DNA of 64,000 nucleotides from Pseudobutyrivibrio xylanivorans (GTDB lineage Bacteria > Bacillota > Clostridia > Lachnospirales > Lachnospiraceae): positions 2,324,501 to 2,388,500 of the forward strand of contig NZ_CP043028.1 in the NCBI RefSeq assembly GCF_008935055.1, read 5' to 3'. Below are positions 12,408 through 53,323 of this stretch, piece after piece. The first letter of the stretch is position 1. Every line of letters begins with the position of its first letter. The notes under the pieces were generated by a model. The model saw nothing but the letters and a program-made list of their open reading frames with translations. It did no database searches and was not told the origin of the DNA. Both the position numbers and the translations under genes were made by a program.

Positions 12408-12443
12408 TAAAATGACGATTTTTTTATGAGAGGAGCTCATAAT

Positions 12444-18616: not shown

Positions 18617-18620
18617 AAAA

Positions 18621-18668: not shown

Positions 18669-18684
18669 AAAGGAGATCTAAAAA

Positions 18685-21113: not shown

Positions 21114-21119
21114 AAGAAT

Positions 21120-21148
21120 GGCAGCCTCAGATAAGAGGCTGCCGTTTT
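21120..21148. terminator. Terminator between methyltransferase 2 and the HNH gene
   Basis: GGCAGCCTC at 21120-21128 pairs with GAGGCTGCC at 21135-21143 across a 6-base loop, followed by GTTTT. The convergent gene ends at 21153, so it may serve both strands. Confidence 0.85.
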
Positions 21149-21152
21149 AGTT

Positions 21153-33028: not shown

Positions 33029-33057
33029 TTGATATTGTTCGAATGATGGGCTATAAT
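33029..33057 (+). promoter_or_regulatory. Promoter of the long cargo 2 operon
   Basis: TTGATA at 33029-33034 and TATAAT at 33052-33057 with a 17-base spacer form a near-consensus sigma-A promoter in the 140-base gap before the HTH gene. It does not carry the TATAATTCGA motif of the other cargo 2 promoters, so this operon may be expressed constitutively. Confidence 0.75.
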
Positions 33058-33124: not shown

Positions 33125-33328
33125 TTGGAAGGTTACATTCAAATTAAAGAAGCTGCTAAAAAATGGGAAATTGGCGAGAGACGAATTAATGAGCTTTGCC
33201 TCAATGGTAGGATAGAAGGCGCTGTAAAATTTGGAAATACATGGGCTATTCCAGAAAATAGTGAAAAACCTGCAGATGCCAGAATTAAGAGTGGTAAATA
33301 CATAAAATGCCGAGGTGAAAATTTATGA
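33125..33328 (+). CDS. Excisionase/MerR-like winged-HTH protein
   Basis: A 67-residue HTH protein (GYIQIKEAAKKWEIGERRINELCLNG, then FGNTWAIPENSEKPADARI), a family common just before restriction and other defence genes in Firmicutes. The TTG at 33125 is preferred, with AGGAGG 7 bases upstream, over a TTG seven codons earlier. It overlaps the next start by 4 bases. Likely operon regulator. Confidence 0.7.
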   Translation: MEGYIQIKEAAKKWEIGERRINELCLNGRIEGAVKFGNTWAIPENSEKPADARIKSGKYIKCRGENL

Positions 33329-34713
33329 TTACATACACAACCAAATTTCCTGTTAATGGATCACTAACCAAAGAAGAATTCATTAAAACTGTAATTAAAT
33401 GGAATCAAGGAAGTCAACATGACAAGATTGAAGGTGTTGAATGGGATGGTGAATCATCTGATTTAAGGTGGAGCCAAGATAAAATCTCGCTTGAGTTCCA
33501 AGAGGTTAAAACAGATGAAATAATAGCGTCTCGTTTACAAAAGGAAGACGAGCATGGTCTTTGGACTACGGATTTTATACTTAATACCGAGAAGAAATGC
33601 TTATCAGTTTCTGTAGGATTGGTGACAACAGAATTTACAACAGATTTCGAACCGACATATTACCCACCATATTTTGTTAAGCTCATTGTTTATAGTGGTT
33701 ACTCAGGAGAAGATTTAGGGCTACAAGTATCTCAGAAAGCACATAAAGTTTCTGAGTGTGAAGAATTGCTTCAAAAGGTATGTGTAAACACGGCCAGAAC
33801 CTCTCTTCCTATCGTGTATATAACAAGTCTGAAAGGTGCAGATTCTGAAATTAATGTAGATGATTTAGCTTTTAGGTTACAAGGCGTTGCTCATGTAATA
33901 TACGAAGCTGGAAGTTGTGAAAAGAATATTTTAAATTTGCCAGATGAGGGTAATCATGATAATCGAGCAATTATTTTTTATCCGAGCACACAGAAAAAAG
34001 CAGATGTCATATGCTTCGAAGAAAAGAGCAAAGACTTTGTTGAAAGCAGAATAATAAATAGCGTTTATAGTTATATGATTCAGCGTATCCGAATGAACAT
34101 GGATACTTGGGAAGGTGTGCTGGGTGAACAATTGCACCTGAAGAATCTCGATCTTTTAAAAAGTAAAGAATCAGTAGAGGAAGAAAATGATTATCTTTAC
34201 GAGGAATTTGGTGATCAGTTAAAGAAAATGGAAGACACCAATGCAAAATTAAATAATGAAATTCAAAGATTGACGGCAGAGGTTCAGGGATTAAGAATGA
34301 AATTTTCCGGTAATTCTCAAACACCAATTATCATGGCTGGAGCAGAGCAAGATTTATACGAAGGAGAAATAAGGGAAATTGTTCTTGAAATACTTGAAGA
34401 GTATAGAAAGAGCTGCCATGAAGGAAGTAGAAGACAACATATTATTGACGATATTCTCCAATGCAATGAATATAAACATTTGCCCGAAAAGAAACGAGAG
34501 GTCCTAAAAAAAGCTCTTAAAGGATATCGAAGCTTGAATGGATCATTGAAGAATGAACTGGAATCACTAGGACTTGAAATCACAAGCGATGGCAAACACT
34601 ATAAATGGTCATATTTTGGTGATAATAGATATGTTGTGACAGCAGCGAAAACATCTAGTGATGCGAGATCAGGAATGAATTTAGCTGCAATAATGGAAAA
34701 ACTAATGCTTTAA
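33325..34713 (+). CDS. Unknown coiled-coil protein of the TerY-P-like operon
   Basis: A 462-residue protein with no recognised family. Residues 1-130 are beta-rich, 140-245 alpha/beta, about 275-335 a coiled coil (EEENDYLYEEFGDQLKKME and on), and 340-440 a helical region with EKKREVLKKALKGYRSLNG. It is coupled to the HTH gene by an ATGA overlap. Position at the head of the operon suggests a sensor or scaffold, but nothing in the sequence shows it directly. Confidence 0.6.
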   Translation: MITYTTKFPVNGSLTKEEFIKTVIKWNQGSQHDKIEGVEWDGESSDLRWSQDKISLEFQEVKTDEIIASRLQKEDEHGLWTTDFILNTEKKCLSVSVGLVTTEFTTDFEPTYYPPYFVKLIVYSGYSGEDLGLQVSQKAHKVSECEELLQKVCVNTARTSLPIVYITSLKGADSEINVDDLAFRLQGVAHVIYEAGSCEKNILNLPDEGNHDNRAIIFYPSTQKKADVICFEEKSKDFVESRIINSVYSYMIQRIRMNMDTWEGVLGEQLHLKNLDLLKSKESVEEENDYLYEEFGDQLKKMEDTNAKLNNEIQRLTAEVQGLRMKFSGNSQTPIIMAGAEQDLYEGEIREIVLEILEEYRKSCHEGSRRQHIIDDILQCNEYKHLPEKKREVLKKALKGYRSLNGSLKNELESLGLEITSDGKHYKWSYFGDNRYVVTAAKTSSDARSGMNLAAIMEKLML

Positions 34714-34747
34714 CGAAAGAATGACAATATATGTCGCATAATAACAA

Positions 34748-34769
34748 TATAATAGCAAGGGATTGCTAT
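34748..34769 (+). promoter_or_regulatory. -10 hexamer with an adjacent palindrome before the vWA gene
   Basis: TATAAT at 34748-34753 overlaps the perfect inverted repeat ATAGCAA, GGGA, TTGCTAT at 34752-34769. No good -35 element is visible at the right distance. The palindrome sits where a repressor would block an internal promoter for the vWA/phosphatase/kinase genes, or it may be an RNA hairpin in the 5' leader. Confidence 0.5.
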
Positions 34770-34798
34770 ATGCATTATTACAATGGAGGAAAAAAGAA

Positions 34799-35491
34799 AT
34801 GGCATTTAATCCTAATAACTACAAGGCACCTGAAGTTAAGAAGTTACCTGTGATTTTGCTCTTAGATGTAAGCGGTAGTATGCAGGGGGCTAAAATTGAT
34901 AGTTTATATAACGCTACATGTGATATGATTGATACTTTTGTTGGAGCGCAGCTTAAGGAACAGAGTATTGATGTCGCTATTATCACTTTTGGAAATGAAA
35001 TTAAGCTTCATACTCCATACACGCCTGTCAAGGAACTTCAGGACAAAGGTCTTGAACAGTTTAAAGCAGAGGGTATGACACCAATGGGCACTGCTATTCA
35101 GATGGCTAAAGATATGATTGATGATAAGAGTGTTACGCCTTCCAGAATTTATCGTCCGGCAGTTGTATTGGTTTCTGATGGAGAACCAAACGATGAATGG
35201 AGAGGACCAATGGCAATGTTTATTAACGATGGAAGATCTGCAAAGTGTCAGCGTTTTGCTGTTGCTATTGGCGATCAGGCAGATCGTACAGTATTGGAAA
35301 CATTTACTGAAAATCCTGATAATGTATTTTTTGCTGCAAATGCATCTGATTTGGCAGATTGTTTTAAGACCGTGAGTATGTCGGTTACCTCAACAGCAAC
35401 CAAACCAGATGCTCCGAAAACTGTTACTGATGATAAGGCTCCTGCACCAACACCAGTTAAGCAGGATGATGATGACGGAGACGATTGGTAA
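34799..35491 (+). CDS. TerY-like von Willebrand A protein 1
   Basis: A 230-residue vWA protein with a complete MIDAS: D23-x-S25-x-S27 (LDVSGSM), the Thr in GMTPMGTAI and the Asp in VSDGEPND. The C-terminal 40 residues are Pro/Lys then a run of Asp. ATG 34799 with GGAGG upstream is preferred over an earlier unsupported start. TerY proteins work with a PP2C phosphatase and a kinase (TerY-P triad), both of which follow here, and the triad has reported anti-phage activity. Confidence 0.88.
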   Translation: MAFNPNNYKAPEVKKLPVILLLDVSGSMQGAKIDSLYNATCDMIDTFVGAQLKEQSIDVAIITFGNEIKLHTPYTPVKELQDKGLEQFKAEGMTPMGTAIQMAKDMIDDKSVTPSRIYRPAVVLVSDGEPNDEWRGPMAMFINDGRSAKCQRFAVAIGDQADRTVLETFTENPDNVFFAANASDLADCFKTVSMSVTSTATKPDAPKTVTDDKAPAPTPVKQDDDDGDDW

Positions 35492-35509
35492 AATGGAGGC
35501 ATAAAATAT

Positions 35510-35938
35510 ATGGCCAAAGACATTAATGTTTTAATTGACACATCCGGAAGTATGGCTGAAGATTGCAAGAATGCTGCTGTTAAATACCTGTTAAACACGA
35601 TAGCGTCATATACTGCTGTAAATGTTAAAAACTATTATTTAGTTGGCGGGAAGTGTGAAAAAGCAGACGCTATAGATGGATTGAAAATTGCTTATGCAGG
35701 TCAAATATCTGTAAATGCCGTAAATGAGTACTTTCGGGAAGTTGTAGAAGGAAAAACTCTTTTGATTAGTGATGGTTGCTTTGATGTTGATACAGAAAGA
35801 GCTATATCTAAACACAGAGATAAGGTTGTATGTGTGGCAATAGGTGAAGATGCAATGCAAAGCAATCTACAGCATTGCTCAAAAAATAACAGGGCATATT
35901 TGGCAGAGGATATTATTGCTGCGATGTCAGCATGCTGA
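35510..35938 (+). CDS. Small vWA protein 2
   Basis: A 142-residue minimal vWA domain. The DTSGSM motif is at residues 10-15 and LLISDG provides the later Asp, but the middle Thr loop is shortened and no clear MIDAS Thr is seen. It may therefore bind metal differently from its neighbour. GGAGG precedes the ATG. Two vWA proteins in a row suggest a heteromeric adaptor for the phosphatase and kinase. Confidence 0.78.
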   Translation: MAKDINVLIDTSGSMAEDCKNAAVKYLLNTIASYTAVNVKNYYLVGGKCEKADAIDGLKIAYAGQISVNAVNEYFREVVEGKTLLISDGCFDVDTERAISKHRDKVVCVAIGEDAMQSNLQHCSKNNRAYLAEDIIAAMSAC

Positions 35939-35951
35939 TGAGGTGTAAATA

Positions 35952-36641
35952 TTGATAACAGATGGAGTGTCTTGCAGAGGTAGCTATCACGAGATTAATC
36001 AAGACTGTTTTGTATGCAAACCTGTAAAAAATGGGTATATTTTGGTGATTTCTGATGGAATGGGTAGTAAGAAATTTTCACAGTTTGGCTCAAGAGCTAT
36101 TTGCGAGATTTTATTACATGAGTTTGAAATTATAAGCGTGCCTTTAGAAGAACTAGATTGGCTTGTGTATCTTAAGAATTGCCATGAAAAATGGTTGGAA
36201 AGTCTTAAGGAATATGATATCACACAATGCTATAGTACAATGCTGGTTCTTCTGGTACAGGATAAACATTTGAAAGCTGCTCGATTAGGAGATGGCTTTC
36301 TTTCAATTTTAGTTGATGATGCAGACTACATATTAATGGACCAGAAAGAGGATTATTTTGCTAATGAAACTGATTGTTTGATGGCTGAGTTTGATGAGGC
36401 ATGCCTTGAAGTATTGGAATTAAATTTTGAAAGATTATTGGGGGCAGTGGCATGTTCTGACGGAATAGAAATTGGTGTAATGAAGGAAGAAGAAATTCGC
36501 TTATTTACAAAAGATTTCATAGGCGAGTATTCTAAAATTTCTGCAAATGACGGTAAAAAGGATATAGAGGGATGGGTTTCGTCATGGCCAGGGATGGATG
36601 ATAAAACTATCGCCTACATGATTGAGGAGGTTGATGCTTAG
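35952..36641 (+). CDS. PP2C-type Ser/Thr protein phosphatase
   Basis: A 229-residue PP2C phosphatase starting at TTG 35952 after GAGGTG. Metal-binding motifs are visible: INQD near residue 17, SDGMGS near 35, and CSDGIE and a closing DKTIAY segment further on. It presumably reverses the action of the kinase encoded next; their genes overlap by one base. It is on the short side for PP2C but all core motifs are present. Confidence 0.85.
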   Translation: MITDGVSCRGSYHEINQDCFVCKPVKNGYILVISDGMGSKKFSQFGSRAICEILLHEFEIISVPLEELDWLVYLKNCHEKWLESLKEYDITQCYSTMLVLLVQDKHLKAARLGDGFLSILVDDADYILMDQKEDYFANETDCLMAEFDEACLEVLELNFERLLGAVACSDGIEIGVMKEEEIRLFTKDFIGEYSKISANDGKKDIEGWVSSWPGMDDKTIAYMIEEVDA

Positions 36642-38029
36642 TGAATCAACAGTATGAAGATATATATGGTAATGTCTTTAGTCTTGATAAAGAGTTAAGT
36701 AGTGGAGGCCAAGGAATTGTATATAAGACCAAAGAGCCGAATGTACTTTTGAAAATAGAGTGGAATCCGCAAACAAAAAGGATAAATCTTGATGTTGTTG
36801 CAAATGAAAAGTTTGATGCAATTCGTCTGTTACCAATTCCTAGCAATACAAATATTACGCTTCCTCAATCCGTGTTAAAGGATTGTGTTGGATATTCGAT
36901 GCGAATGTTGGATGATATGATTTCATTCGAGGAAGCATTTAGATATGGTGATATAGAGTATAGAAATGCTTGGCTAGAAAGCTTTGGAGACAGCAATCCT
37001 GAATTTGTAAAAGGTTTTGGAAATTATATAAGCACTGGTGGAAAAAGAAGAAGAATAGCAGCATTTTTAAAAGTTGCAGGAATTTTGTCTACTATACATG
37101 CAAGAGGTTTAGTATATTGCGATTTGTCTGATAAGAATATGTACATATCGAGCGCACAGGATAGAGATGTTGTCTGGATGATAGATGTGGATAACATTAA
37201 CTTTATAACTGTTACAAGCAAAAGAGATGGTATATTTTCGCCAGGATATGTAGCTCCGGAAATATTAAAAGGGAAAGGGAATACTTTCTATTCTGATATT
37301 TTTTCTTTTGCAATAGCATTGTTCTGGAATTTGACAGGGCAGCATCCGTATGTGGGGCCGCAATTAGAGGACAAGCTGGAGGAGGAAGATTTTCTTTCAG
37401 AGACAGAAGAAACATTTGCATGTGGATGTGATGTTGAATGGATAAGAGATGATGAAGATGATTCAAACTATTCGGAAACACCTATACCTTATGATCTTTT
37501 AGTTGGCGAAAAGTTGAATAATTGTTTCAAAAGAACCTTTTCTAGAGCTGGACGTCATAAGAGATTGACTAGACCTACAATGATTGAATGGGGAGAAGCT
37601 CTAGCTTATGAATTAGATAATTCAATTAAATGCCATAAGTGCGAAATGGAATATAATCCTACGATAAGTGATACATGTCCGTGGTGTGATGAAAAAAACA
37701 CTTATGTCTCTCTTTCTTGTAAGGGAGTTAACGGAGAAAATCCTGTGGTCACACATATGCAAGAAATTGGAACTGTAATTAAAGTGCCACTAAGACTTAT
37801 TAATGGATTTAGTGTTTCAGAATTAGATGATGTCCTTTTTGAAATTGAATCGTCAAAGAAGGAAGTGGTTATTCGTAGCTTTAATAACCATTTTGACTTT
37901 GAATGCAGTTATGATGGCATATTTCAGAGAATATTTGGTAAATGCGTGATTGACAGAGATACTCAGATAAAAGTTACGGATAAATCAACTGGTGAGAAAT
38001 ATCTTGTTGATTATGTATTGAAAGGTTGA
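36641..38029 (+). CDS. Ser/Thr protein kinase with zinc ribbon
   Basis: A 462-residue kinase from GTG 36641. The glycine loop SSGGQGIVYK spans residues 20-29 with K38 as the ATP lysine; the catalytic loop is YCDLSDKN with D161, and the metal Asp is D182 in IDVDN in place of DFG. A PEI motif follows the activation segment. The C-terminal part has a zinc ribbon (CHKC and CPWC) and a beta-rich domain of unknown role. With the vWA proteins and the PP2C it forms a TerY-P triad. Confidence 0.86.
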   Translation: MNQQYEDIYGNVFSLDKELSSGGQGIVYKTKEPNVLLKIEWNPQTKRINLDVVANEKFDAIRLLPIPSNTNITLPQSVLKDCVGYSMRMLDDMISFEEAFRYGDIEYRNAWLESFGDSNPEFVKGFGNYISTGGKRRRIAAFLKVAGILSTIHARGLVYCDLSDKNMYISSAQDRDVVWMIDVDNINFITVTSKRDGIFSPGYVAPEILKGKGNTFYSDIFSFAIALFWNLTGQHPYVGPQLEDKLEEEDFLSETEETFACGCDVEWIRDDEDDSNYSETPIPYDLLVGEKLNNCFKRTFSRAGRHKRLTRPTMIEWGEALAYELDNSIKCHKCEMEYNPTISDTCPWCDEKNTYVSLSCKGVNGENPVVTHMQEIGTVIKVPLRLINGFSVSELDDVLFEIESSKKEVVIRSFNNHFDFECSYDGIFQRIFGKCVIDRDTQIKVTDKSTGEKYLVDYVLKG

Positions 38030-38033
38030 TTAT

Positions 38034-41000
38034 ATGAAAATATCAGAAATCAAAATAGATGGACAAAGCGAATTAAAAGATGTTTCATGCCATGTTCTTG
38101 GGGCCAGGGATATAGTGTCTAAAAGTGGGCATGTTGCTTATTTGGGTGAAAATTCATTTGAGCTTGTCACAAAGGATAATGCCATACCTTTTTCAATTGA
38201 TGATTTAAGTGATTGCAAAATGGTAACAGATTTTATTAATAGGCATTATTATTGCTTGGCAGAAATCACTTCTACATCGAGTAATAAGGAATCTGGGGTT
38301 ATTTTTCTGCATTTTGTATTTTTTTGCAATTGCAAGAGGATGGGAAGGATGCCTTTGATATTGAGTGAAAATGCTTTGCAATATCTTTTTAAGTTTTGGA
38401 AAGTTGATAACAAAGTAGATAAGGTATATGCGCATCTGCAAGAGCAGTTTGAGTTGACAAATGGTTTAGAGTCTTGTTTTGCTTTTGAGAGTAGCGAGAA
38501 AAATATAAAAGCCTTTTCAAATGTCGAACAAACGGAAAATGATGCTGACGAAGAAGATGATGAGGACACATCTGGCGAGAAAAGTAGGGTGTTGGTTCTT
38601 CATGGAAAATCCATTAAGTTGTATGTAACTCTTCGCGGAAAGGCTTTTGAAGAGAAACTGTATGTGGAGCGTGTTATAAAAAATAGTAATAGAAAACCAG
38701 CGAATCTAATGCTTGGAATAGGTTCTCTGGAATTTACTGATACGGGTGCTGTTTTATCCTTAAATGCCAAGAAGTTTTATGATGAAAATAAAGGATATCT
38801 TGATCTTTGGAATGAATATTCAGAAAAAGAAGGTAATTTCATATTAGCTAACGCTAGAGCTGTAGGACTAATCACACTTAGCAAAAAGAGTTTATCTTTT
38901 GAAACCGCAGGTGGAGTATATGTGGGTGTCAGCGATTATGAGAGGTTGTGCAAATTAATTAGCGATAATTCCTATTTGGTGTTTGCTGATGAGAAGCCAG
39001 TATATTTAGAAGACCCTGATATGACCTGGAAGGAATATGATGATTACCAGGAAGAAAGGCGCAGATTAAGAATAAAGCCTGAACATGGAACAGTAGTCAA
39101 GTTATTAAGAAAAAAGAATGGAGGATTTGTATTAGATCTTTCTCAACTTTCACTTCCTGATTCTAGGTATGTATATTTGTCTATATATGGAGATGAGAAA
39201 CAGATTCAGAGAAGGAAAGATGCCAGACGTAGAATTGCCAGCGGTGAGTCGGCTAATAGATCTTTAGGATTAATTCTTGAGGGCGAGTTGCCTGATGTTT
39301 TTGAGGATACTAAAAATAGAGTGAAAGTAGATCCACTTTCATCTTTTGTGGCTGAAAAAATATTCAAAAACCCCCCAACTGAAACCCAGAAAAATGCAAT
39401 TGATATAGCATTAAACACACCAGATATTGCTATTATTCAAGGACCTCCTGGAACCGGAAAAACAACTGTAATTACCGCTATAATTGAAAGACTCAATGAG
39501 ATAAGCAATAAAAAGACAGTGAACAATGGTCAAGTTTTGATAACTAGTTTCCAACATGATGCGGTCCGCAATGTAATTGAAAGGTTGAGTGTCAATTCTT
39601 TACCTACTGTGAAGTTTGGAAAACAGGAGAAGGATGGGGAAGAAGACCGAACAAAAGAAGTTATCATAGAAAAATGGTGTACCAATTACGCTGAAGCCTT
39701 AAAAAATTCCAATCCAGATTTAATTCAGTCAAAAGACATGAGAGATTTGGCTAAAGCGTATAACTTTTATCAAGCATACCCAAGCGATTCTAAAGCGGTA
39801 GAGTTCCTTGAGTGTGCAAAACGTCTTAACAATGAACAAGCATTGAATGAAATAATAGAAAGGCTTCTTGAAGAGTATTCTCAAAATGTTTCTAATGATA
39901 AAAATGATTTCATTGATTTTGTGAGAAGACTTAGAGTAACAAAGGAAGGATTTTCAGATGATGGAGCTGACAATGCGTATGATTTGTTGCAAGAATTAGA
40001 GTCTTTAGGTTTGGACAGAAAAAAGAGAGATATTGAGTGGCTTCTTTCTGTTTTAGAAGAAGCATCAGATTGCTTTGATAATGAACCCAATGACGAACTG
40101 CTTAATGAACTTGTCAAAGTTAAGAAATTCTTGTTAGGCAAGTGTATGCCTAGAATCACATACTCTGAGAAAAAAGCTAACCATGAAATTACTGATATCT
40201 ATTTGGCTTTGCAGGAACATTTGAAAAAACGAGAAAATAAAGAAATTGAGATATTGTCAGAACTTCTAAAAGAAGTTGAAGGTAACAGTGATGAGGTAGA
40301 GCGTACATTAAATAATTATCTATACGTGTATTCTGCTACGACCCAGCAGAGTGAAGGAAGTGAAATAAAAGACGCTAAAGGAGTTGAATTGTGGGAACAT
40401 CCTGAATACGAAACTGTAATTGTTGATGAGGCAGCCAGAGTAAGTCCTATAGACCTAATGATTCCTTTAGCACAGGGCAAACGAAGAATTATTTTGGTGG
40501 GGGATCATCGACAACTACCACATATCTATAATGAAGAGGTTCTTGAAAGTATTGATGTTTCCAAATTAGAGAATTTGGAAATGGATAACATTAAGAAAAG
40601 TATGTTTGAGTACCTTCTAGGTAAAGCAAAGAAGTTAGAAGAACAAGACCATATTCCAAGAACGATAGTTTTAGATGCTCAGTATAGAATGCATCCTATG
40701 CTTGGTAACTTTATTAATGAAACATTTTATGCACCACATAACGAAAGTTTTACGTCACCCTTAGAGGAGTCTTTTTATAGGCAAGGCCTATATAAAAAGC
40801 CTGTGATGTGGGTAAATATGCCTAATGATAAAGGCCCTGAAAGAAAAGAGGGGACCAGTAGAGCTAGAGATTGTGAAGCAAGATGCATTGTTGAACTTAT
40901 AAAAAAACATATAAAGTCCTCCGAGGGAAAAGCTTTATCATATGGAGTTATATCATTCTACAGTGAACAAGTTAGACTCATAAAACGTCTTCTAAAGGCT

Positions 41001-41456
41001 GATGATGAACTGAAAGAATATCAAGATAAAGTAAAAGAAATTAGAGTGGGAAGTGTTGACGCATTTCAAGGTATGGAGTTTGATGTCATTTATTTGTCTG
41101 TCGTAAGAACAAATAAAAAAGATCCGATGTATACCGATTTAGAAACAAGAAAACAGGAACCGGTAGATTTTTCTATATTAAGTCAAGACGAGATTGAATT
41201 AGAAAAAGATAAGAAAGCTTTAAAAATATACAGAGACTACAAAGAACAGGTTGGACTACAAAACTATGGTTTTTTGATTTCAGAGAATAGATTATGTGTA
41301 TCTTTGAGTAGACAGAAAAAATTATTAATTGTAGTTGGAGACCGTAATATCTTTTGCGAAGGCAAATGGGACAAGCTTGCAGAAGTATGTGTTCCGGGGA
41401 TGTGGAAATTGCTAAGACTCTGTGAAAGAGAGGGGGTTGTTGTAGATGGCACTTGA
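38034..41456 (+). CDS. UPF1-like superfamily 1 helicase
   Basis: A 1140-residue protein. The first roughly 430 residues are unique to this family and include an acidic linker near 160-180. The helicase core has motif I GPPGTGKTT at about 470-478, DEAA (motif II) at about 798, GDHRQLP (motif III), DAQYRMHP (motif IV), VDAFQGMEFD (motif V) and LSRQKKLLIVVGD (motif VI). This is the AAA_11/AAA_12 type found in UPF1, SenX and defence helicases such as ZorD-like and Hna relatives. It overlaps the next gene by 11 bases. Nuclease motifs were not seen. Confidence 0.88.
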   Translation: MKISEIKIDGQSELKDVSCHVLGARDIVSKSGHVAYLGENSFELVTKDNAIPFSIDDLSDCKMVTDFINRHYYCLAEITSTSSNKESGVIFLHFVFFCNCKRMGRMPLILSENALQYLFKFWKVDNKVDKVYAHLQEQFELTNGLESCFAFESSEKNIKAFSNVEQTENDADEEDDEDTSGEKSRVLVLHGKSIKLYVTLRGKAFEEKLYVERVIKNSNRKPANLMLGIGSLEFTDTGAVLSLNAKKFYDENKGYLDLWNEYSEKEGNFILANARAVGLITLSKKSLSFETAGGVYVGVSDYERLCKLISDNSYLVFADEKPVYLEDPDMTWKEYDDYQEERRRLRIKPEHGTVVKLLRKKNGGFVLDLSQLSLPDSRYVYLSIYGDEKQIQRRKDARRRIASGESANRSLGLILEGELPDVFEDTKNRVKVDPLSSFVAEKIFKNPPTETQKNAIDIALNTPDIAIIQGPPGTGKTTVITAIIERLNEISNKKTVNNGQVLITSFQHDAVRNVIERLSVNSLPTVKFGKQEKDGEEDRTKEVIIEKWCTNYAEALKNSNPDLIQSKDMRDLAKAYNFYQAYPSDSKAVEFLECAKRLNNEQALNEIIERLLEEYSQNVSNDKNDFIDFVRRLRVTKEGFSDDGADNAYDLLQELESLGLDRKKRDIEWLLSVLEEASDCFDNEPNDELLNELVKVKKFLLGKCMPRITYSEKKANHEITDIYLALQEHLKKRENKEIEILSELLKEVEGNSDEVERTLNNYLYVYSATTQQSEGSEIKDAKGVELWEHPEYETVIVDEAARVSPIDLMIPLAQGKRRIILVGDHRQLPHIYNEEVLESIDVSKLENLEMDNIKKSMFEYLLGKAKKLEEQDHIPRTIVLDAQYRMHPMLGNFINETFYAPHNESFTSPLEESFYRQGLYKKPVMWVNMPNDKGPERKEGTSRARDCEARCIVELIKKHIKSSEGKALSYGVISFYSEQVRLIKRLLKADDELKEYQDKVKEIRVGSVDAFQGMEFDVIYLSVVRTNKKDPMYTDLETRKQEPVDFSILSQDEIELEKDKKALKIYRDYKEQVGLQNYGFLISENRLCVSLSRQKKLLIVVGDRNIFCEGKWDKLAEVCVPGMWKLLRLCEREGVVVDGT

Positions 41457-43527
41457 AAATGCCTTTAGTTTATTTGAGGATTCAAGATATGAAGAATTGT
41501 TTCCTAATGTTCGACTCCTTGGCAATCCGGTGGATTATTTCATTCAATGTAATACTTATGAAGTATTGGTTCCTTCACAGGCTGCAACGGAACAACGTTT
41601 GGATATGTTTGAAGATGCAGTATTAAAGCTATTAGAATATAAACCTTATACCAAGGAGGAGTTGGCAGATACACTTTGCTTACCTAAGGATATTATTAGC
41701 TTTATTAAGATTAGGTTGAAAGAACTTGGACTACTAGAAAAAGATGAATTTACTGTAAGTGAATTGGGAAAGAACTATTTAAGTGGATTAACTAGTAGCA
41801 ATAAAAGTGTTGTTTATAGGCAGGCAAAGCTTTTTGTCATTAAAGATACAGGAGAGATTTTGCCTTATGTACATTACGGAGAATTAGAATTTGCAAATAT
41901 AAAAAAGACTTCCAAAAATTTCACCACTATAGAATATGGATCTGCTGGAAGACCTTCAACTATTACTGGGGAAAACATTTGGGCTAAATCTCTACAAGGT
42001 GCATTGGGCGGAAAAATGCTGAAGTCCAATGATATTAAGGAAACTTTGTATTTATACAATAAGATATCCTCAAATTCAACTAGATTTGCCCCGATTGAGA
42101 TTTTTAGTAATTATGCTATTGAAAACACTTCGTCAGAGGATTGCTTGCTGCATGTTAAAGCTGCTATCCAAGAGGGAAGTGCAGATGAGTTGATTGTATC
42201 GGATGGATTTGTTGCCAATAATGATTTTTTAGCGAGATATCTTAAGAAAGAACATCCAGAAATTATTAGTGAAGTTAAGACTCAGGCTGTTCGGGTTAAT
42301 TCTCAAGAACCAGATGAGGAATCCAATTTTGATTTTGCAAAAGCTAATGAAGGACGTTATAGAAGTCTATATCAGCCTATGTATAGTATAAATTCTGCAT
42401 ATGAAAAGATTATGGCAGAAGAGTCTGGTTCATCCCAGGATGAATATGTTGAAGAGCAGTATGATCAAAAGCAGTTTCTGCTTAACTGTTATGCGGTAAT
42501 AGAACATACTCTTTATAATTACTTGTTGGGTAGCCCACTGGGGCAAAATCGTCTGAAGTTACTTTATCGACAGGATACGTATTTGAATCAGGAATTGATT
42601 TTAACGCTGTCTGAGCAATTAGGGCTGGAATATATTAGACAATATGATTATTTATTTGGAATCGTAAGTAGAAGTAATATCACTAAAATGTATAATTCTA
42701 AAACTCCCAATATGTATATTGTTTTGCCGCTGGTTTTGATAGAAGCTTTTGACAATAAAAGCAGCTTATTTAGAGTGATGATTGAAAAGTATCCTGGGGT
42801 TATACATACAATTAATAAGTTGCACAATAAATGTAAAGACTTGAGACATAAGACATATGCTGATGATATCAATGTAGATTACGTAGACCAGATATACTAC
42901 TTTACAACATTGCTTATAGAATGCCTTTTGCCAGATTTTATTTACAGTGGAAAGGGAGATGTTAATACCATTCCTTCAGATGTAAAGCAAAATCAGAGGC
43001 TGCTAGTTGATGTTAATTTAGCAGAAGTGTTTGGCCCTATGTACTATTATAATGTGATGGATGAATCTCTAAAAAACGAGTGGAAATTGGTAGCACCAGG
43101 GAAAACAGACTATCCGGCACCATATGAGTATGTGAATACATTGTACAGAATTTTACAAGAAACAATTTATGAGCAAGTATTCTATATGAAGAAGAAGCAA
43201 CTTCCTAAGGAACAGATAGTAGAATTGGCTAGAAATCGTTGGGGGAAAGAACTTGAACGTGGATTAACAGGTGTTCATAAAGACTATGTTAAGGACACTT
43301 TGGGAAGCAAGAGTACTACACTGGGTGCTCAAGCATTGGTGTATCTTTGCTTTTGTCCGGATGAAAAACTATTGAAACTTAGAGAATATAAATTTGATGA
43401 AGTTGTATCTCTTGTGACTAAATATCGTGAACACGGGAATAATGTAGCTTTGCAACTTGATACAAGAGATTTAGAAGAACTTAGAGATAAAGTGATTAAT
43501 GTAACCAAGGTGATAGGGGGCATATAA
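41446..43527 (+). CDS. Unknown protein with winged-helix region (693 aa)
   Basis: A 693-residue protein not recognised as a whole. Residues 55-110 (LEYKPYTKEELADTLCL, KIRLKELGLLEKD) look like a winged helix. The rest is mainly helical, with a polar linker near 285-345. Translation is coupled to the helicase gene by an 11-base overlap and the next gene starts one base after its stop, so it is a fixed part of the complex encoded by the operon. Confidence 0.6.
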   Translation: MALENAFSLFEDSRYEELFPNVRLLGNPVDYFIQCNTYEVLVPSQAATEQRLDMFEDAVLKLLEYKPYTKEELADTLCLPKDIISFIKIRLKELGLLEKDEFTVSELGKNYLSGLTSSNKSVVYRQAKLFVIKDTGEILPYVHYGELEFANIKKTSKNFTTIEYGSAGRPSTITGENIWAKSLQGALGGKMLKSNDIKETLYLYNKISSNSTRFAPIEIFSNYAIENTSSEDCLLHVKAAIQEGSADELIVSDGFVANNDFLARYLKKEHPEIISEVKTQAVRVNSQEPDEESNFDFAKANEGRYRSLYQPMYSINSAYEKIMAEESGSSQDEYVEEQYDQKQFLLNCYAVIEHTLYNYLLGSPLGQNRLKLLYRQDTYLNQELILTLSEQLGLEYIRQYDYLFGIVSRSNITKMYNSKTPNMYIVLPLVLIEAFDNKSSLFRVMIEKYPGVIHTINKLHNKCKDLRHKTYADDINVDYVDQIYYFTTLLIECLLPDFIYSGKGDVNTIPSDVKQNQRLLVDVNLAEVFGPMYYYNVMDESLKNEWKLVAPGKTDYPAPYEYVNTLYRILQETIYEQVFYMKKKQLPKEQIVELARNRWGKELERGLTGVHKDYVKDTLGSKSTTLGAQALVYLCFCPDEKLLKLREYKFDEVVSLVTKYREHGNNVALQLDTRDLEELRDKVINVTKVIGGI

Positions 43528-43528
43528 A

Positions 43529-46144
43529 ATGGACGAAAAAAAGATTATTGAAGAATCAACGGAATCTAAAGAAATAACAGATACCCCGGTGGATTTGAAT
43601 GCATCTACAGAGACAAGTGCTATGACTGACGAAAATGGCTTAAATGATGGTGGGGTTACAGAAGAAAAGAGCTATAAAGCAAGAGTTGAGGAACTTCTTA
43701 AGTGGCAGATGAAATTGGCTGACGAGCAAGCAAAGTTAGAGGCTTATAGAACATCAACATTTCAGCAAATGGGTGAGCTTGAACAACAGAAGAGAATTGC
43801 TAGTTCTGAACAGCAGGCAGCTTTACAAGAAGAGCGCCAGAAGTTTGAGGCCGATTTAGCTTCGATAAGAGCAAAGAAAGACGCTGAAACAATTGCTATG
43901 ATTGCAGGTGAATGGAGTAAGTTTGAAAAGGAAAAAGAGGCTCAAATTATAGCATTAAAGAAAGAACTTGAGGGAATGCGTACCCAAACTCAAAAGGAGA
44001 TGGATGCTCTTCGCTCTCAAGTTAGTAAGGAGTTGGATGAAGCCCGTTCATTGGCTGCAAAAGAAATACAGGTGATGAAATCTGAAGCGCAGAAAGAGAT
44101 AGATAAGGCTCAGGCTGATAGCAAAAAAGAGATTATCGCAGCAAAACAAGAATCAATAAAAGCTGCTGAAATTGAAATTGAGCAGAGAACTCGCGAACTC
44201 ACCGAGGCAGAAAAGAGAACAGAGCGTGAAGCTGGTCGACTTGCTGAATTGGATAAGAAGCTTCAGCAGCTTGAAATCGAATTAGAAGCGCGAGAGGCTC
44301 AGGTAAATGATGATAAAAGCGATAATATTCGAGAAAGAAGACGATTGGATCGAGAAAAGCAAAGAATTAACGGGGCAAGCGATAATTTGGAACAAGAGAT
44401 TCAAGAACGTTTCTCTGATAGAATTGATTCGTATGAGCGAAAACTTGACAGTAAAGATGATGAGCTAGAGAGATTGAGATCGGAACTAGCTTCTTTGATG
44501 GCAACTAGTGAGTCAATACAAAGCTTAAGAGCCGCTTACGGAATGGACCCTGAGAAAATAAAAGCGAGAATTGCTGACCTGGAAGCTAGAAATAAAGCTC
44601 TTTTAGATGAAGCTGCTAATAGTACGACAAGGATTGAGTATGACCGTGTTAGTAGTGAGAAGAGAGCACTGGAAACAAAGTTTGCACAGGCCCAGGAGGA
44701 AATAAGACGTATTTCAGTAACTGATGGTGAAGTGCAGACTTTAAGGTCAGAAATACGAAGACTTGAGTCAACAAATGAAAATCTTAAAGTTGAGGCGGAA
44801 GAAGCTAGAAATATTCAGAAGTCACTGCAGAATGAGCTATTAAGATTATCTACTCCGGCAGAAAGAGAACTTGATAGAGAAGCAAGAATTGCATCTATAA
44901 AACGAGAGATTATGTCCCCTGAAGAACTTGAGTGGGAAACACATCCTGTTGATATGAATGAAATTGATTGGCTCGAGGATATAAAAAAGCAATGTGATAA
45001 CTACGGCATTAAGTTCCAGAGAAGGATTTTATATGCTTTCCATACAGCATTAAAGATTAATGACTGGTCGATTATTACTGTGCTTGCTGGTGTTAGTGGT
45101 ACTGGTAAATCTGAACTCCCAAAATTGTATTCTTTTTTTGGTGGATTGAATTTTATTTCGGTTGCAGTGCAGCCAAACTGGGATAGTCAGGAATCTATGC
45201 TTGGATTTTTCAACTCAATTGATAATCAATTCCAGCCAGAGGATTTGCTGAGCTTTCTAGTACAGTGCTCTGATAAAGACAGTGGTTTTAAGCTGTATCC
45301 AAGTGTTGTCCTTTTGGATGAAATGAACCTTGCATATGTTGAACATTATTTCGCTGAATTTTTGAGTAAGCTTGAAGAGCGAAGAGGAAAGACAAAGAAA
45401 GACCTGCCGGAGGTTAAGGTTAACCTTGGCGCAGGTGTCGCACCTTACGAGTTACCTCTTGTAAGAAACGTATTATGGACTGGTACTATGAATCAGGATG
45501 AAACTACGAAGTCTCTTTCCGATAAAGTAATTGATAGAAGTATGGTAATAAATTTCCCTAGACCTAAGCATCTTGCTGAAAGAACTAAGATGGAGAAGCT
45601 CAAGAAAACAGAGAAGAAATTATTATATGATACATGGAGATCTTGGATTACTGTTGATTTGGAAAGTGATTTTACAAGTGAACAAAGAGAGATCTTTAAG
45701 GAATATAAAAGAATTATCGAAAAGATCAATGATTGTTTAGAGGAAGTAGGAAGAGCTCTTGGTCATAGAGTATGGCAGTCAATAGAATACTATATTGCTA
45801 ATTACCCTACAGTAATAAATGCCTTGAAAAATTCTCAAGGAGAAGTAACCGAGGAGTTAAAAGCTGAAATGAGGACAGCCTTTGAGGATCAGCTTGTTCA
45901 AAAAGTAATGCCAAAACTTAGAGGTATTGAAACTCGTGGCAAAGGTCGTCAAAGCTTACAGAACATAGAAGATCTTTTGGCCGAGGAAGGCTTCGAGAAT
46001 CTTAAAGATGACTTTGAAATTGCATGTGAACAGGGTTATGGTCAGTTCGTATGGAGCAGTGCAAAATATCTCGGTGACGATGAGGACATTTTATCTTCAG
46101 ATGATAACGCTGAGAAAGACACTGAAAATAACTCTGAAGAGTAG
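43529..46144 (+). CDS. McrB-like AAA+ protein with long coiled coil
   Basis: An 871-residue protein. Residues 50-450 form a long coiled coil of Glu/Lys/Arg/Ala repeats. The AAA+ domain follows with Walker A GVSGTGKSEL near 520, Walker B VVLLDEMNLA near 595 and the sensor segment GTMNQDETT near 655, as in McrB-type ATPases (which use GTP in E. coli). In McrBC the ATPase drives a nuclease subunit encoded next; here the next gene is a large DUF2357 protein. The coiled coil takes the place of a DNA-recognition domain. Confidence 0.85.
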   Translation: MDEKKIIEESTESKEITDTPVDLNASTETSAMTDENGLNDGGVTEEKSYKARVEELLKWQMKLADEQAKLEAYRTSTFQQMGELEQQKRIASSEQQAALQEERQKFEADLASIRAKKDAETIAMIAGEWSKFEKEKEAQIIALKKELEGMRTQTQKEMDALRSQVSKELDEARSLAAKEIQVMKSEAQKEIDKAQADSKKEIIAAKQESIKAAEIEIEQRTRELTEAEKRTEREAGRLAELDKKLQQLEIELEAREAQVNDDKSDNIRERRRLDREKQRINGASDNLEQEIQERFSDRIDSYERKLDSKDDELERLRSELASLMATSESIQSLRAAYGMDPEKIKARIADLEARNKALLDEAANSTTRIEYDRVSSEKRALETKFAQAQEEIRRISVTDGEVQTLRSEIRRLESTNENLKVEAEEARNIQKSLQNELLRLSTPAERELDREARIASIKREIMSPEELEWETHPVDMNEIDWLEDIKKQCDNYGIKFQRRILYAFHTALKINDWSIITVLAGVSGTGKSELPKLYSFFGGLNFISVAVQPNWDSQESMLGFFNSIDNQFQPEDLLSFLVQCSDKDSGFKLYPSVVLLDEMNLAYVEHYFAEFLSKLEERRGKTKKDLPEVKVNLGAGVAPYELPLVRNVLWTGTMNQDETTKSLSDKVIDRSMVINFPRPKHLAERTKMEKLKKTEKKLLYDTWRSWITVDLESDFTSEQREIFKEYKRIIEKINDCLEEVGRALGHRVWQSIEYYIANYPTVINALKNSQGEVTEELKAEMRTAFEDQLVQKVMPKLRGIETRGKGRQSLQNIEDLLAEEGFENLKDDFEIACEQGYGQFVWSSAKYLGDDEDILSSDDNAEKDTENNSEE

Positions 46145-46178
46145 TTTGTAATAATATGTATCAAAGGGGGATCCTATA

Positions 46179-49100
46179 GTGAAGGAAATAGATAGCTACG
46201 AAAAATATTGTAAGTCCTTTACTGATGATACAAACAGTGGAGCCAAGGCAGAGGCTTTGCTTATGCTTTATATTCAAAATTGGATAATAAAGTTGCAAAG
46301 TAATACTGAAAAGGAATTCACAGATTATAGTCTTAGTCAATTTATTGAGGATAACTTATATAAGCAGAGAAGAGAAGAGTCACGAGAAGATGCGCTATCA
46401 AATATAGTCGATAGTGCAATAGATGCTTTTAGGATAATTTCAAAAAATATGAGGGAAAGAATAATACGTGAGAATGTTATGATGCCCTCATATAAAGTAA
46501 AGGAAATTAATAGTCAAGGATTAAATTGGTTAAGTAGACAATCTGGAAGAAATATAAAACAGAAGGTTTCATCAGCTGGAAATAATGTGTTAGCTGTTCA
46601 ACGTAGAATGAGCTATGATACGGGTGAAAATCGACTTTTTGTAGAGTTTGTTAGGGAATTATTGGAAATTCTGACAGTAAAGTTGAAATATATTCCGGAG
46701 GCTAACAGACCAGTAGGAGAGAAGGATATATGTAATGAATTGGCTTCATTTTTGTATAGAACCGACTTAAAAGAGATTCGTAGATGGGAAAATTTGCCAC
46801 CAAATAACACTCTTTTGTCGGATCAGAATTACAAAAAGATATGGACTGCCTGGAATTCTTTAAAATCACTAGATGAGTTGATTCTTGCAGATAGTCAAAA
46901 TGCTGATGCGCGCCTTGCGACAATCTTTTATTTTGAGTTTTTGACTCAAATACAGGGGCGTGTAAAAATTGTGCAAATGCCTTTGGAAATTGATTACGAT
47001 AATTATCTAATTCACTATGGAAGTGAAAAGGTAAAATTTTTAGATTCCAAGGGTAAGGCATATAGTATAGCTATATCTGGACAAACCATAACGATGACTG
47101 TCGATACTAAAGAAGTTTTGGCTGAAATAAAAGATGGTAGAATTGCGATTTTTGTAGCTGGTGAGGACAAAGGAAATAGTTTTTCAGTAAATGTAGGTAA
47201 TATATATAAATACACATTATTGTATGCGTCGAAAATTGGATTGCCAAAAGAAGGTGCTTCGCTAGAACAAACTGTGACCAATGAGAAATGTGATAATGTT
47301 GTAATTGATCTGTTTGCTTTACATCCTAATTATTTAGTGGATGGAGAAGAACTAAGATATTTAGAGGAACGAGTATTACAGCAAACATACTATACTGAGG
47401 ATATCTACGGGGATAAGAGAAAATTTTACTTGCCATGCGATACCACAAGGGCTATTAGTATGATGCATGGTGTGACACAAACATATACTATTCCTTATGC
47501 GGTGGACAGTGAATCATTTGATCAATTGCAACGATTGATGCATATGATGGAGGGCTATATCTCTGCAAAACAGTTTTCATATGTTTTTCCGGATGTATAT
47601 AATGAATTTCAGCTTAGTAAAATATATAAGGCTGCTAGAATGGCATATAGAAATGTTAGTAGTATGCCAATGAGCATAGGTGTAGCTTTTGACTACATGG
47701 TAACCGATGATTTTGCTGAATATTTCGAACCCGATGATTTCTTGTTAATAGTGAATTTGTTAGATGATGAACTTACTATGACTTTGATTAAGGGTGAATA
47801 TGATGAGAAATTATCATATGATATTCCTGAATATAAAGGTGTCGTATGGGAAAGACATCCAACCGCAACCATTTCCGTTAAAAGTAAGATCAGTGACAAA
47901 ATAATCGATTGCCTTGAAAAGGCTGGTTGTGATAAAGCACGAAAATTATATCAGCTTTTTGGACTTGAAGGTTTAATCTCAGAAACTAGAATGTTATCTG
48001 TATTGATTGATGATTCCTCATGGTTCACTGTTAGTGAAGAATTATCGGAAATACTTCAAAACATGATCTTTAATATAGATGATGAGATTAGTTTGTTTTT
48101 AAGTAAGCAGCAAGGAATTATTGGAGATGCGCAGATACATATTCTTTCTTTAGTTGATAATTTAACTGGAAAGGATAATTTTATCCAGTATATTGATAAG
48201 TGTAGTGCTTTGTATGGCGTGAGTATTTACGAAAGTCTAAAGTTGGATACGGATGTATCGTTATGGCACGATCACTTGCCAAATCTTTCGATTAAACTTT
48301 TGTATGATAAATTCGACTTAATCAAGGATGCTACTGTTCTACCTATATTTGAACCACAAAAAATTGAAATATCCAATACATTCGTTTTGCCTAAGGGAGA
48401 AGCAGAATACCACTTCAGACTTGTACAGGAAGATAGTGCAAGAAAGATGCAATATGAAGCGGTTGTTAAGAATTCAAAGTTTCCTCTAGAACAGGATGCA
48501 GAATGCGTGTTGGATATGGTATATCATTATGGTGCAGAGGAACCATTTACACTTATATTTAGGCCGATCGATCCTATAATGGCTAAGTTTGCGGAGGCAA
48601 AAGTAGAATGGAAGAATTTTGAGGAATATGAGTGGATGAATAATCCAGTTCCGGCGTTTCCACGTAAATTGTCATGGGAAGAACTTAGAACATACATTGG
48701 AAGAAACAACGAAAATATTGACGTGATAAATATATTAACTGAAAAATTCGAACTGATTGGCAAAGGATATGAAACTCATGATTTGACCAATGAGAAGGTA
48801 GAAAGTAATTGGAAAGGGCAGAAGTGCGGTGAGTTTTATCATGTAACCAATGAAGGGGAGAAGGTTTTAGTTAGATGGAGTGAATGGGATTGGGAAAAAG
48901 GATCTCAAAAACCTCGTTATTGGGATGGAATTTCTTTTCTGTTAGAGGATTCTACAGATCAACAAGTTACACGATACAAAATAGATGATGTTTGGGCAGC
49001 AAGAACACGCGACAGTGTATGGTTTACAAATAATCAAGGATCGGTAATGGCAGTTTTGGAGTTTGAGTATGAGGGTGAAGAAACAACAATTGCCGTATTA

Positions 49101-50132
49101 GCAGATAAGTTTGATAATCCAGATGAATTTGATGAGAATCTTGATTCTATATCTTTTGAGGTCATCAGAAATAAGAAAACGGGAAAATTGTCTGCGATAA
49201 ACATTCATAATGAGGACTATGGTCCGTATAGGCCTAAAAAGTATAAGGTGGCTAAGAGAATTCATATAGCAGGCACTCCACCAAAGCATTTTGTGAATTC
49301 CTTCTATAATCGTTGGATGCGAGTGTTATTTGCTAATAATAGATCACTTGCGGAGGACGGTTGCCCAGATGAGTTTAGAAGGGCGTTCTTGAGTAATCAA
49401 GAAGCGTGGTTGTCTTTATTCCATGAATATGATGATCCAAAGGATAAGAACAAGGCCTTTATTGATTATTCATTAGCAGCAACAAATGTAGGAAAAGAGT
49501 ATTTCCCTATTGCAGCTGAATATCTAAGAATGTACTTTAATGGTGAAATACGCTTGGAGTATGAAATTGGATGTGCTCTTGGAAATATGACGACAGATAT
49601 GCAGAAGTCCTTTCTTAAGGTAATGGTAGAAAGAATTACTGATAAAAAAATCGTCATAGGTATACTTGCTAAGGCGCTATGGCATGACGAACAGTTTGTA
49701 TTCAACTTTTACGAATATGACTCTGAACTATTGTTGGATTTCTTTGATTATGCAGTAGAGTTTATAGGTACATGCCTAGAGGATGTGGAATATGATAGGT
49801 TAAATAAGGATGACTTGAGTGATATTAGATATTGCTTAGAATATATTCTTGGAATTCTACGGTTGAGAGCCTTAGAGAATGAAACACTTAACAAAAAATA
49901 TTTGTCGTTAAATAATACGAATTTATTAAAGTTGTATAGATACTTAGAAATTATGATTAGTAATCATACAAAATTATATTCGTTCTTAAAATTGGAAATA
50001 ACCAACAAAGGTGGGTATGATTTTATTCCAGACTTTATGTATGCGTTACTGGTATATATTTCAGGGTATAACACTGATAGTGAAATTAAGATTTCAGGAA
50101 TCAACACAGATTTTAATGACGATGAAGATTAA
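46179..50132 (+). CDS. Giant DUF2357-type protein (McrC-like partner)
   Basis: A 1317-residue protein starting at GTG 46179 after GGGGG. The segment around residues 85-165 (LNWLSRQSGRNIKQKVSS, then RRMSYDTGENRLFVEFVRELLE) matches DUF2357, a family that pairs with McrB-like ATPases and usually ends in a PD-(D/E)XK nuclease domain. It is about twice the usual length. I could not locate a clear nuclease active site by eye. The C-terminal 250 residues are helical. It ends the operon at a bidirectional terminator. Confidence 0.72.
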   Translation: MKEIDSYEKYCKSFTDDTNSGAKAEALLMLYIQNWIIKLQSNTEKEFTDYSLSQFIEDNLYKQRREESREDALSNIVDSAIDAFRIISKNMRERIIRENVMMPSYKVKEINSQGLNWLSRQSGRNIKQKVSSAGNNVLAVQRRMSYDTGENRLFVEFVRELLEILTVKLKYIPEANRPVGEKDICNELASFLYRTDLKEIRRWENLPPNNTLLSDQNYKKIWTAWNSLKSLDELILADSQNADARLATIFYFEFLTQIQGRVKIVQMPLEIDYDNYLIHYGSEKVKFLDSKGKAYSIAISGQTITMTVDTKEVLAEIKDGRIAIFVAGEDKGNSFSVNVGNIYKYTLLYASKIGLPKEGASLEQTVTNEKCDNVVIDLFALHPNYLVDGEELRYLEERVLQQTYYTEDIYGDKRKFYLPCDTTRAISMMHGVTQTYTIPYAVDSESFDQLQRLMHMMEGYISAKQFSYVFPDVYNEFQLSKIYKAARMAYRNVSSMPMSIGVAFDYMVTDDFAEYFEPDDFLLIVNLLDDELTMTLIKGEYDEKLSYDIPEYKGVVWERHPTATISVKSKISDKIIDCLEKAGCDKARKLYQLFGLEGLISETRMLSVLIDDSSWFTVSEELSEILQNMIFNIDDEISLFLSKQQGIIGDAQIHILSLVDNLTGKDNFIQYIDKCSALYGVSIYESLKLDTDVSLWHDHLPNLSIKLLYDKFDLIKDATVLPIFEPQKIEISNTFVLPKGEAEYHFRLVQEDSARKMQYEAVVKNSKFPLEQDAECVLDMVYHYGAEEPFTLIFRPIDPIMAKFAEAKVEWKNFEEYEWMNNPVPAFPRKLSWEELRTYIGRNNENIDVINILTEKFELIGKGYETHDLTNEKVESNWKGQKCGEFYHVTNEGEKVLVRWSEWDWEKGSQKPRYWDGISFLLEDSTDQQVTRYKIDDVWAARTRDSVWFTNNQGSVMAVLEFEYEGEETTIAVLADKFDNPDEFDENLDSISFEVIRNKKTGKLSAINIHNEDYGPYRPKKYKVAKRIHIAGTPPKHFVNSFYNRWMRVLFANNRSLAEDGCPDEFRRAFLSNQEAWLSLFHEYDDPKDKNKAFIDYSLAATNVGKEYFPIAAEYLRMYFNGEIRLEYEIGCALGNMTTDMQKSFLKVMVERITDKKIVIGILAKALWHDEQFVFNFYEYDSELLLDFFDYAVEFIGTCLEDVEYDRLNKDDLSDIRYCLEYILGILRLRALENETLNKKYLSLNNTNLLKLYRYLEIMISNHTKLYSFLKLEITNKGGYDFIPDFMYALLVYISGYNTDSEIKISGINTDFNDDED

Positions 50133-50136
50133 ATAA

Positions 50137-50175
50137 AAAGAACGCTCCTAGCCAATGTGTTATGGGGCGTTCTTT
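50137..50175. terminator. Bidirectional terminator between convergent operons
   Basis: AAAGAACGCTCC at 50137-50148 pairs with GGGGCGTTCTTT at 50164-50175 (one G-T pair). T-rich sequence follows the stem on the plus strand and A-rich sequence precedes it, giving a T-run on the minus strand. The last codons of the minus-strand MYG1-like gene lie inside the stem. Confidence 0.75.
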
Positions 50176-50984: not shown

Positions 50985-51058
50985 GATATGCCTCCTTTCT
51001 AGTATCATGTACTAATTATCGGTTTAATTCTATATTCTGTCAATTTGATTAGATGGAT

Positions 51059-53246: not shown

Positions 53247-53323
53247 ACAAGATAATAATTATATAATTAAGCTGTGTCTAGATCTCATCTAGTACAGCTT
53301 GATTGAGGAATGCGAGGTGCGAT

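Follow-up and report, generated by a model that had tools for sequence, protein, structure and literature searches.

Probable Type III-A CoCoNuT genes on an integrative and conjugative element of Pseudobutyrivibrio xylanivorans, and the MYG1 and P0006 genes linked to them

What kind of system arises when a phosphorylation module, a UPF1-like helicase and a McrBC-like gene pair stand together in one operon on a mobile element? The question is raised by a stretch of 64,000 nucleotides from Pseudobutyrivibrio xylanivorans (contig NZ_CP043028.1, positions 2,324,501 to 2,388,500; the whole stretch is called the window here), in which ten genes follow one another between positions 33125 and 50132. 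An earlier note on this DNA took them for a new joining of the TerY-P triad (VWA, phosphatase, kinase) with the helicase and a McrB/DUF2357 pair. That joining is not new: judged by sequence, TerY-P, CnuH, CnuE, CnuB and CnuCD, in this order, match the Type III-A CoCoNuT (coiled-coil nuclease tandem) described by Bell et al. (2024, eLife; PMC11090510). The operon itself is a further member of a published, experimentally untested system type, and what is new are two additions to it, a MYG1 gene and an accessory gene called P0006. The reading we prefer, with a probability of roughly 60%, is that of a Type III-A CoCoNuT, a multi-gene defence system resembling Type IV restriction, carried as cargo of an integrative and conjugative element (ICE); this variant from the window's order would have recruited MYG1 and, in two of three loci, P0006. 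The genes are the following.

33125-33328, + strand: small helix-turn-helix (HTH) open reading frame (ORF), excisionase- or regulator-like, 67 aa, TTG start (Pfam HTH_17, E 0.002, below cut-off)
33325-34713, + strand: P0006, accessory protein of 462 aa (PADLOC HEC-07, 5.9e-10, over the N-terminal part)
34763-35491, probable start 34799, + strand: VWA 1, TerY-like, MIDAS residues present (Pfam, 5e-17)
35510-35938, + strand: VWA 2, short (weak Pfam match, 0.016, below cut-off)
35952-36641, + strand: PP2C-type phosphatase of TerY-P (Pfam PP2C_2, 2e-21)
36641-38029, + strand: Ser/Thr kinase, catalytic D161 (Pfam Pkinase, 2.7e-11)
38034-41456, + strand: CnuH, UPF1-like superfamily 1 helicase (AAA_12, 7e-38; PADLOC MkoA, 2e-89)
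41446-43527, + strand: CnuE, 693 aa, predicted winged HTH (wHTH) and two predicted HEPN regions (PADLOC MkoB, 1e-6; alignments with CnuE)
43529-46144, + strand: CnuB, coiled coil and McrB-like GTPase (PADLOC PDC-M26A, 4e-31; AAA_5, 0.0046, below cut-off; Walker A and B)
46179-50132, + strand: CnuCD, 1317 residues, DUF2357 at residues 76-188 (Pfam PF09823, 5e-8)
50160-51008, - strand: MYG1/UPF0160 exonuclease (P0007), motifs HNGRFHTDD and YDHH (PF03690, 4.5e-39)

The first ten frames are all open on the + strand where the earlier note had placed them, and they are packed tightly, with an overlap of 11 bp between CnuH and CnuE and of 1 bp between the phosphatase and the kinase. Its domain calls hold as well, the second VWA, the AAA match and the HTH lying below Pfam cut-offs; the zinc ribbon of the kinase (CHKC...CPWC, residues 331-349) was recognised by eye only. 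One start has to be moved, since for VWA 1 ATG 34799 behind a GGAGG is more probable than TTG 34763. The ICE setting is also as proposed: genes of ICE type lie 0.1-12 kb off (TrbL, PrgI, TraG/VirB4-like, NlpC/P60, CD1107-like, ArdC-like, topoisomerase, relaxase), a large serine recombinase is encoded at 53303-55012, and the view of the operon as ICE cargo is supported.

How is a Type III-A CoCoNuT put together, and how closely does the window follow it? The first leads were profile matches, namely MkoA, MkoB and PDC-M26A of PADLOC and DUF2357 of Pfam. According to the published description, Type III-A consists of TerY-P, which is frequent and not core, CnuH with N-terminal SPB and RTL domains, CnuE with a pair of HEPN domains, CnuB bearing the NxD motif, and CnuCD, in which DUF2357 is joined to Hsp70-like and HEAT parts and the nuclease of CnuC is reported lost; CoCoNuT types are sorted there by the number of HEPN domains, the RxxxxH motif being conserved in most cases for Type II (PMC11090510). 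Extended Type III-A loci are described with an ATPase between or after duplicated VWAs, and such duplicates are regarded as a possible vestige (PMC11090510). The window shares the gene order, the NxD GTPase and the duplicated VWA with a short internal copy, whereas an ATPase or CARF gene is lacking both between its VWAs and directly behind them, a cysteine replaces the arginine of HEPN1, and P0006 stands upstream and MYG1 downstream. There is also a likeness to Mokosh, where a UPF1-like helicase gene also precedes that of a wHTH-effector protein. In Mokosh the helicase, found together with MkoB, is fused to the kinase, whereas the kinase of the window is a separate gene accompanied by TerY-P and McrBC-like genes.

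It is to be asked whether these genes stay together elsewhere, a check that had been set beforehand. A tblastn search with CnuCD gave 19 plasmid records, three of which were examined in detail: L005 from a Klebsiella plasmid, L006 from a Caballeronia plasmid and L133 from plasmid p1 of Photobacterium damselae. Two further loci come from genomes of the window's order, L110 in genome G1110 and L066/L067 in genome G152. In five of these five loci the triad and cnuH-cnuE-cnuB-cnuCD are present, in the same order as in the window, and the idea of one system stands. The loci differ around the VWAs and at the 3' end. In L005 the VWAs are separated by AAA ATPase and CARF genes; L006 has CARF and a WXG100/FtsK-type insert, the insert lying between the VWAs; L133 has, like the window, adjacent VWAs followed by PP2C, kinase, CnuH, CnuE, CnuB and CnuCD, and a HerA-like ATPase (PADLOC HerA 1e-18, mad8 3e-21) after CnuCD in the place of MYG1. 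Between the short VWA 2 of the window and VWA2 of L133 there is a weak match (28%, E 6e-4). CnuH and CnuE of G152 are spread over more than one frame, and apart from the largest CnuH piece they were left out of the CnuH and HEPN comparisons.

The system is rare in these hosts and its gene set is stable. CnuCD matches were found in 2 of 295 genomes of the order, the window's own and G152; from 398 genomes of the phylum a CnuCD profile picked out that of the window alone at E<=1e-10, and CnuB of G1110, as query against 146 genomes of the order, likewise gave no genome but the window's at E<=1e-40. Viral contigs gave no relatives of MYG1, CnuB or CnuCD. NxD was also looked for in 19 McrB-like loci (L017-L035) without a match; the pattern was narrow and the loci short, and no count is drawn from this.

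Protein by protein the orthology is also seen. CnuB carries NxD as TMNQDE from residue 653, together with Walker motifs, and NxD is kept in all eight aligned CnuB rows; its coiled coil was read by eye, with an SMC-like match of 1e-3. With CnuB of two plasmid loci it shares 40-41% identity, and it matches no solved structure at 0.01, either as single sequence or as profile. CnuH aligns over its full length with CnuH of L005 and L006 (34-36% identity), and its best-scoring solved structures are NAM7/UPF1. The 693-residue protein, listed before as unknown, aligns along its length with other CnuE (21-23% identity), and its residues 42-146 give a wHTH-like match to MkoB. In CnuCD the DUF2357 match reaches 32.9 bits against a cut-off of 23.3, and the whole protein aligns with CnuCD of L005, L006 and L133 at 25-29% identity; its C-terminal regions would correspond to the Hsp70-like, cold-shock domain (CSD) and HEAT parts of Type III-A, the Hsp70 part lacking confirmation. 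No solved relative of CnuCD appears at E<=1, and hhalign gave no match with A2. No nuclease profile was matched in CnuCD, a missing match being no proof of absence; the reading of the DUF2357 protein as a nuclease is corrected here as probably wrong.

Then, what does MYG1 do beside such an operon? In the window its gene lies 27 bp past the end of CnuCD, just outside the interval first given to the operon, and is convergent with it. The PF03690 match has 135 bits against a cut-off of 22.1, a match at 5e-17 is found to PDB chains that were deposited as MYG1 exonuclease, and the DHH-type motifs are intact and present in 34 of 34 aligned rows (a second piece of the G1208 MYG1, L108, was left out). 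In G1110, MYG1 directly follows CnuCD on the same strand with a stop/start overlap, TAATG, and in G152 it does so with a gap of 2 nt; MYG1 adjoins CnuCD in all three CoCoNuT loci found in the window's order. These three linked MYG1s are 59-65% identical among themselves and form one clade in the 34-row tree (support 99/93), apart from 21 MYG1s of the window's own family. PF03690 was found in 11 of 146 genomes of the order, and at E<=1e-15 MYG1 was found in 23 of 180 genomes of the own family, where one (G1110) of the 22 other loci has a CoCoNuT, and in one of 48 genomes of G152's family. This one is G152, the CoCoNuT-bearing genome, which was located by CnuCD and not by MYG1.

Eukaryotic MYG1 and bacterial UPF0160 share with the window protein the Pfam family and the H-x-G-x-FH-x-DD and DHH motifs; the window gene differs in standing beside a defence operon, and its RNase activity is predicted. 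Yeast MYG1, a 3'-5' RNA exonuclease, is described as restricting the L-A virus together with other systems (PMC10089162), and the 3'-5' RNA exonuclease activity of eukaryotic MYG1 is reported also in PMC11167044. The main text of the CoCoNuT paper contains no mention of MYG1, DHH, UPF0160 or exonuclease, its supplements being outside that check (PMC11090510), and among publications naming both MYG1 and phage none deals with bacterial defence as far as titles and the beginnings of abstracts tell.

The other addition, P0006, has a different distribution. Its residues 13-193 match HEC-07 (5.9e-10, for a profile without curated cut-off), and the rest of the protein is without a match; in a structure model, a thioredoxin-like fold is predicted at 136-251 together with a coiled coil and a C-terminal winged-helix-like end. 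For the fold of P0006, Foldseek returned nothing at E<=1e-3. The earlier note had counted P0006 and the HTH ORF as members of the operon. No P0006 match lies 5' of the triad in any of the five loci, and no TerY-P or CoCoNuT gene was found in the flanks of P0006 relatives at 30 genome loci, only 15 of which are flanked on either side by more than 3 kb; on these 30 of 30 loci P0006 was rejected as part of the core. Its nearest relative, in G1110, sits in the CoCoNuT operon after MYG1, and because of this P0006 is, on its sequence relationships, an accessory gene of the system. The CoCoNuT-linked P0006s are one clade in a 32-row tree (100/100), from which four loci in pieces (L041, L051, L063 and L065) were left out. 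Phage records gave no P0006. For the HTH ORF the 30 genome loci with P0006 gave no match at 1e-4, and neither did L005, L006, L133, L110 and L066 at 1e-3; it does not belong to the core, and its membership is doubtful. Upstream of it lies a promoter-like TTGATA-17-TATAAT (33029-33057, 11/12); the number of such hits in the whole scan equals that in shuffles (66 vs 66.2).

By which route did the window's core come to have its MYG1? The core is nearer to that of the Klebsiella plasmid (CnuB 41%, CnuCD 30%) than to those of G1110 and G152 (31-32% and 19%), while the MYG1s are 60-65% identical. In a rooted CnuB tree the window groups with the proteobacterial rows (88/92), the AU p being 0.051 for a clade of window, G1110 and G152; an unrooted six-gene tree leaves these three on one side (90/95). 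That two core lineages recruited MYG1 independently is a tempting idea; the trees do not settle it, and it is not claimed.

How might the whole machine work? What follows, including RNA as the target and defence itself, is modelled mostly on the predictions of PMC11090510. The DUF2357 part of CnuCD would stimulate the GTPase ring formed by CnuB, and the remaining domains of CnuCD (Hsp70-like, cold-shock) may bind foreign or aberrant RNA (both after PMC11090510). The UPF1-like CnuH would unwind or remodel the bound RNA, and CnuE, attached to CnuH through its wHTH region, would cut it with HEPN, probably using just the second site, RxH. TerY-P, that is kinase, phosphatase and VWA, could act as a phosphorylation switch setting the threshold of activation. 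By analogy with UPF1-driven decay, which joins a helicase to nucleases, MYG1 might then digest the HEPN-cut RNA in the 3'-5' direction, and P0006 might be an adaptor or regulator. A phosphorylation-controlled destruction of nucleic acids had been suggested before; this comes close to the published hypothesis, with the differences that the predicted target is RNA and that the likely effector is the HEPN part of CnuE. CoCoNuTs in general are predicted to target RNA on the grounds of sequence and structure prediction (PMC11090510), and a recurring exonuclease partner from a family that is antiviral in yeast would strengthen that prediction, would offer a component easy to assay, and would connect one more antiviral gene of eukaryotes with defence in bacteria. 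It is tempting to go further and to regard the Clostridia Type III-A as a subtype of its own, whose immune complex would include an operon-encoded 3'-5' exoribonuclease from a dedicated MYG1 clade, coupled to the UPF1-like helicase and the HEPN endonuclease, as a bacterial counterpart of UPF1-driven decay and of the yeast MYG1 antiviral action; this extension is tentative, and we hold it with less than even confidence.

Several observations weigh against a CoCoNuT with recruited MYG1, or could be taken for other explanations. No activity data for any member of the system were found. In CnuE, HEPN1 reads CKDLRH (463-468), cysteine replacing arginine, and the other four of five aligned CnuE have RxxxxH; HEPN2 reads REH (661-663), and RxH is kept in all five (G152 is not among these sequences). 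HEPN1 would be impaired in this variant; if CnuE cuts RNA here, it is probably HEPN2 that does so. The RxxxxH motif of HEPN1 is not treated as defining for membership in Type III-A. The Hsp70-like part of CnuCD is unconfirmed, hhalign giving 0.1% probability for residues 467-539 on residues 139-207 of E. coli DnaK, and a single-sequence model of residues 380-831 was unusable (pLDDT 32). The linkage of MYG1 has its own difficulties. The main weakness is that only three linked loci are known and that one of them, G1110, was found through MYG1 itself. No CoCoNuT gene was seen near the other 21 own-family MYG1s, 17 of which have flanks of more than 3 kb on both sides, and one of the 21 comes after JetABC, so MYG1 has other settings too. 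The three proteobacterial Type III-A loci contain neither MYG1 nor P0006, and neither is therefore required. Could the two genes then be unrelated cargo that merely shares the same defence islands with an ordinary Type III-A CoCoNuT? Both stand alone in most of their loci, and their order and strand differ between the window and G1110, which would fit such a view together with the small number of loci and their absence from the proteobacterial ones. The stop/start overlap and the 2-nt gap between CnuCD and MYG1 in two genomes argue otherwise, as do the single clades of linked MYG1s and of linked P0006s and the one MYG1 among the 48 genomes of G152's family, which lies beside a CoCoNuT; unrelated cargo appears rather unlikely.

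Another explanation keeps MYG1 in the system and changes its task: it would be a brake, a DHH-family phosphoesterase that removes a small-nucleotide or short-RNA signal, in place of the CARF/ring-nuclease proteins of extended Type III-A loci. DHH proteins indeed include nanoRNases and cyclic-dinucleotide phosphodiesterases. CARF genes are present in L005 and L006 and none is seen in the window operon, and the location of the window's MYG1 on the other strand, which speaks against its belonging to the operon, would suit separate control. On the other hand, L133 lacks MYG1 and has no CARF gene within its operon, its Csm6-annotated gene being 6.5 kb away, downstream of CnuCD, and Pfam places the protein in MYG1, whose eukaryotic members are RNA exonucleases (PMC10089162). 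A brake appears unlikely. Far less probable still is a triad-controlled system in which the DUF2357 protein carries the nuclease and destroys DNA. It has the precedent of McrBC, where McrC joins DUF2357 to a nuclease, and a methylase/helicase cluster lies on the same ICE; against it, the DUF2357 protein shows no nuclease profile, and loss of the nuclease is what is reported for CnuC of Type III-A (PMC11090510). The CoCoNuT with recruited MYG1 and P0006 remains the reading that we prefer.

Relatives of the two added genes were met in other surroundings. In G110 (L082 4972-11655) a long MYG1 of 410 aa, whose end matches Csx20 weakly, stands immediately after JetA, JetB and JetC; the genes tested at this locus gave no PADLOC match to JetD. 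That MYG1 might be a general gene of defence islands was considered and rejected: the top neighbour family, an ABC-type ATPase, occurs in 6 of the 21 own-family loci and the others in 2 at most, the neighbours having been annotated for G110 only. There are 68 plasmid records with MYG1, and in the one examined, H30, it lies among ordinary chromosomal-type genes. In G152 (L066 2703-9040) the gene next to MYG1 encodes an RNase T-family exonuclease (Pfam 1.3e-17), beyond which a WYL regulator and a helicase-HNH protein follow. A second P0006 relative of the window's own genome, G000:C1:3411683-3412850 (L014, L132), lies at a contig end in two frames, and no CoCoNuT gene is near it in the 17 kb examined. 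Another (L007 641-2062) is a stand-alone gene of ColRNAI Klebsiella plasmids, which measure 5.9 kb and carry few further genes, and the P0006 locus of G575, of the same class as the window, is identical to that of a Mageeibacillus record.

The ICE of the window also has a second probable defence cluster at 12426-22403, with an SNF2 helicase (PADLOC DrmD 6e-112), a sacsin/HATPase protein (TmtA 3e-60), two C5 cytosine methylases and, on the other strand, an HNH nuclease (REase_II 8e-15). Just before the operon, at 31956-32651, lies a gene for a DarT-like ADP-ribosyltransferase, which matches Pfam DarT at 3e-15 and stays well below the cut-off of the NCBIfam DarT model. Between the two defence clusters, on the minus strand at 27372-29680, there is a pair of WCX-domain genes, resembling regulators of WYL type, the second of which matches just under the Pfam cut-off.

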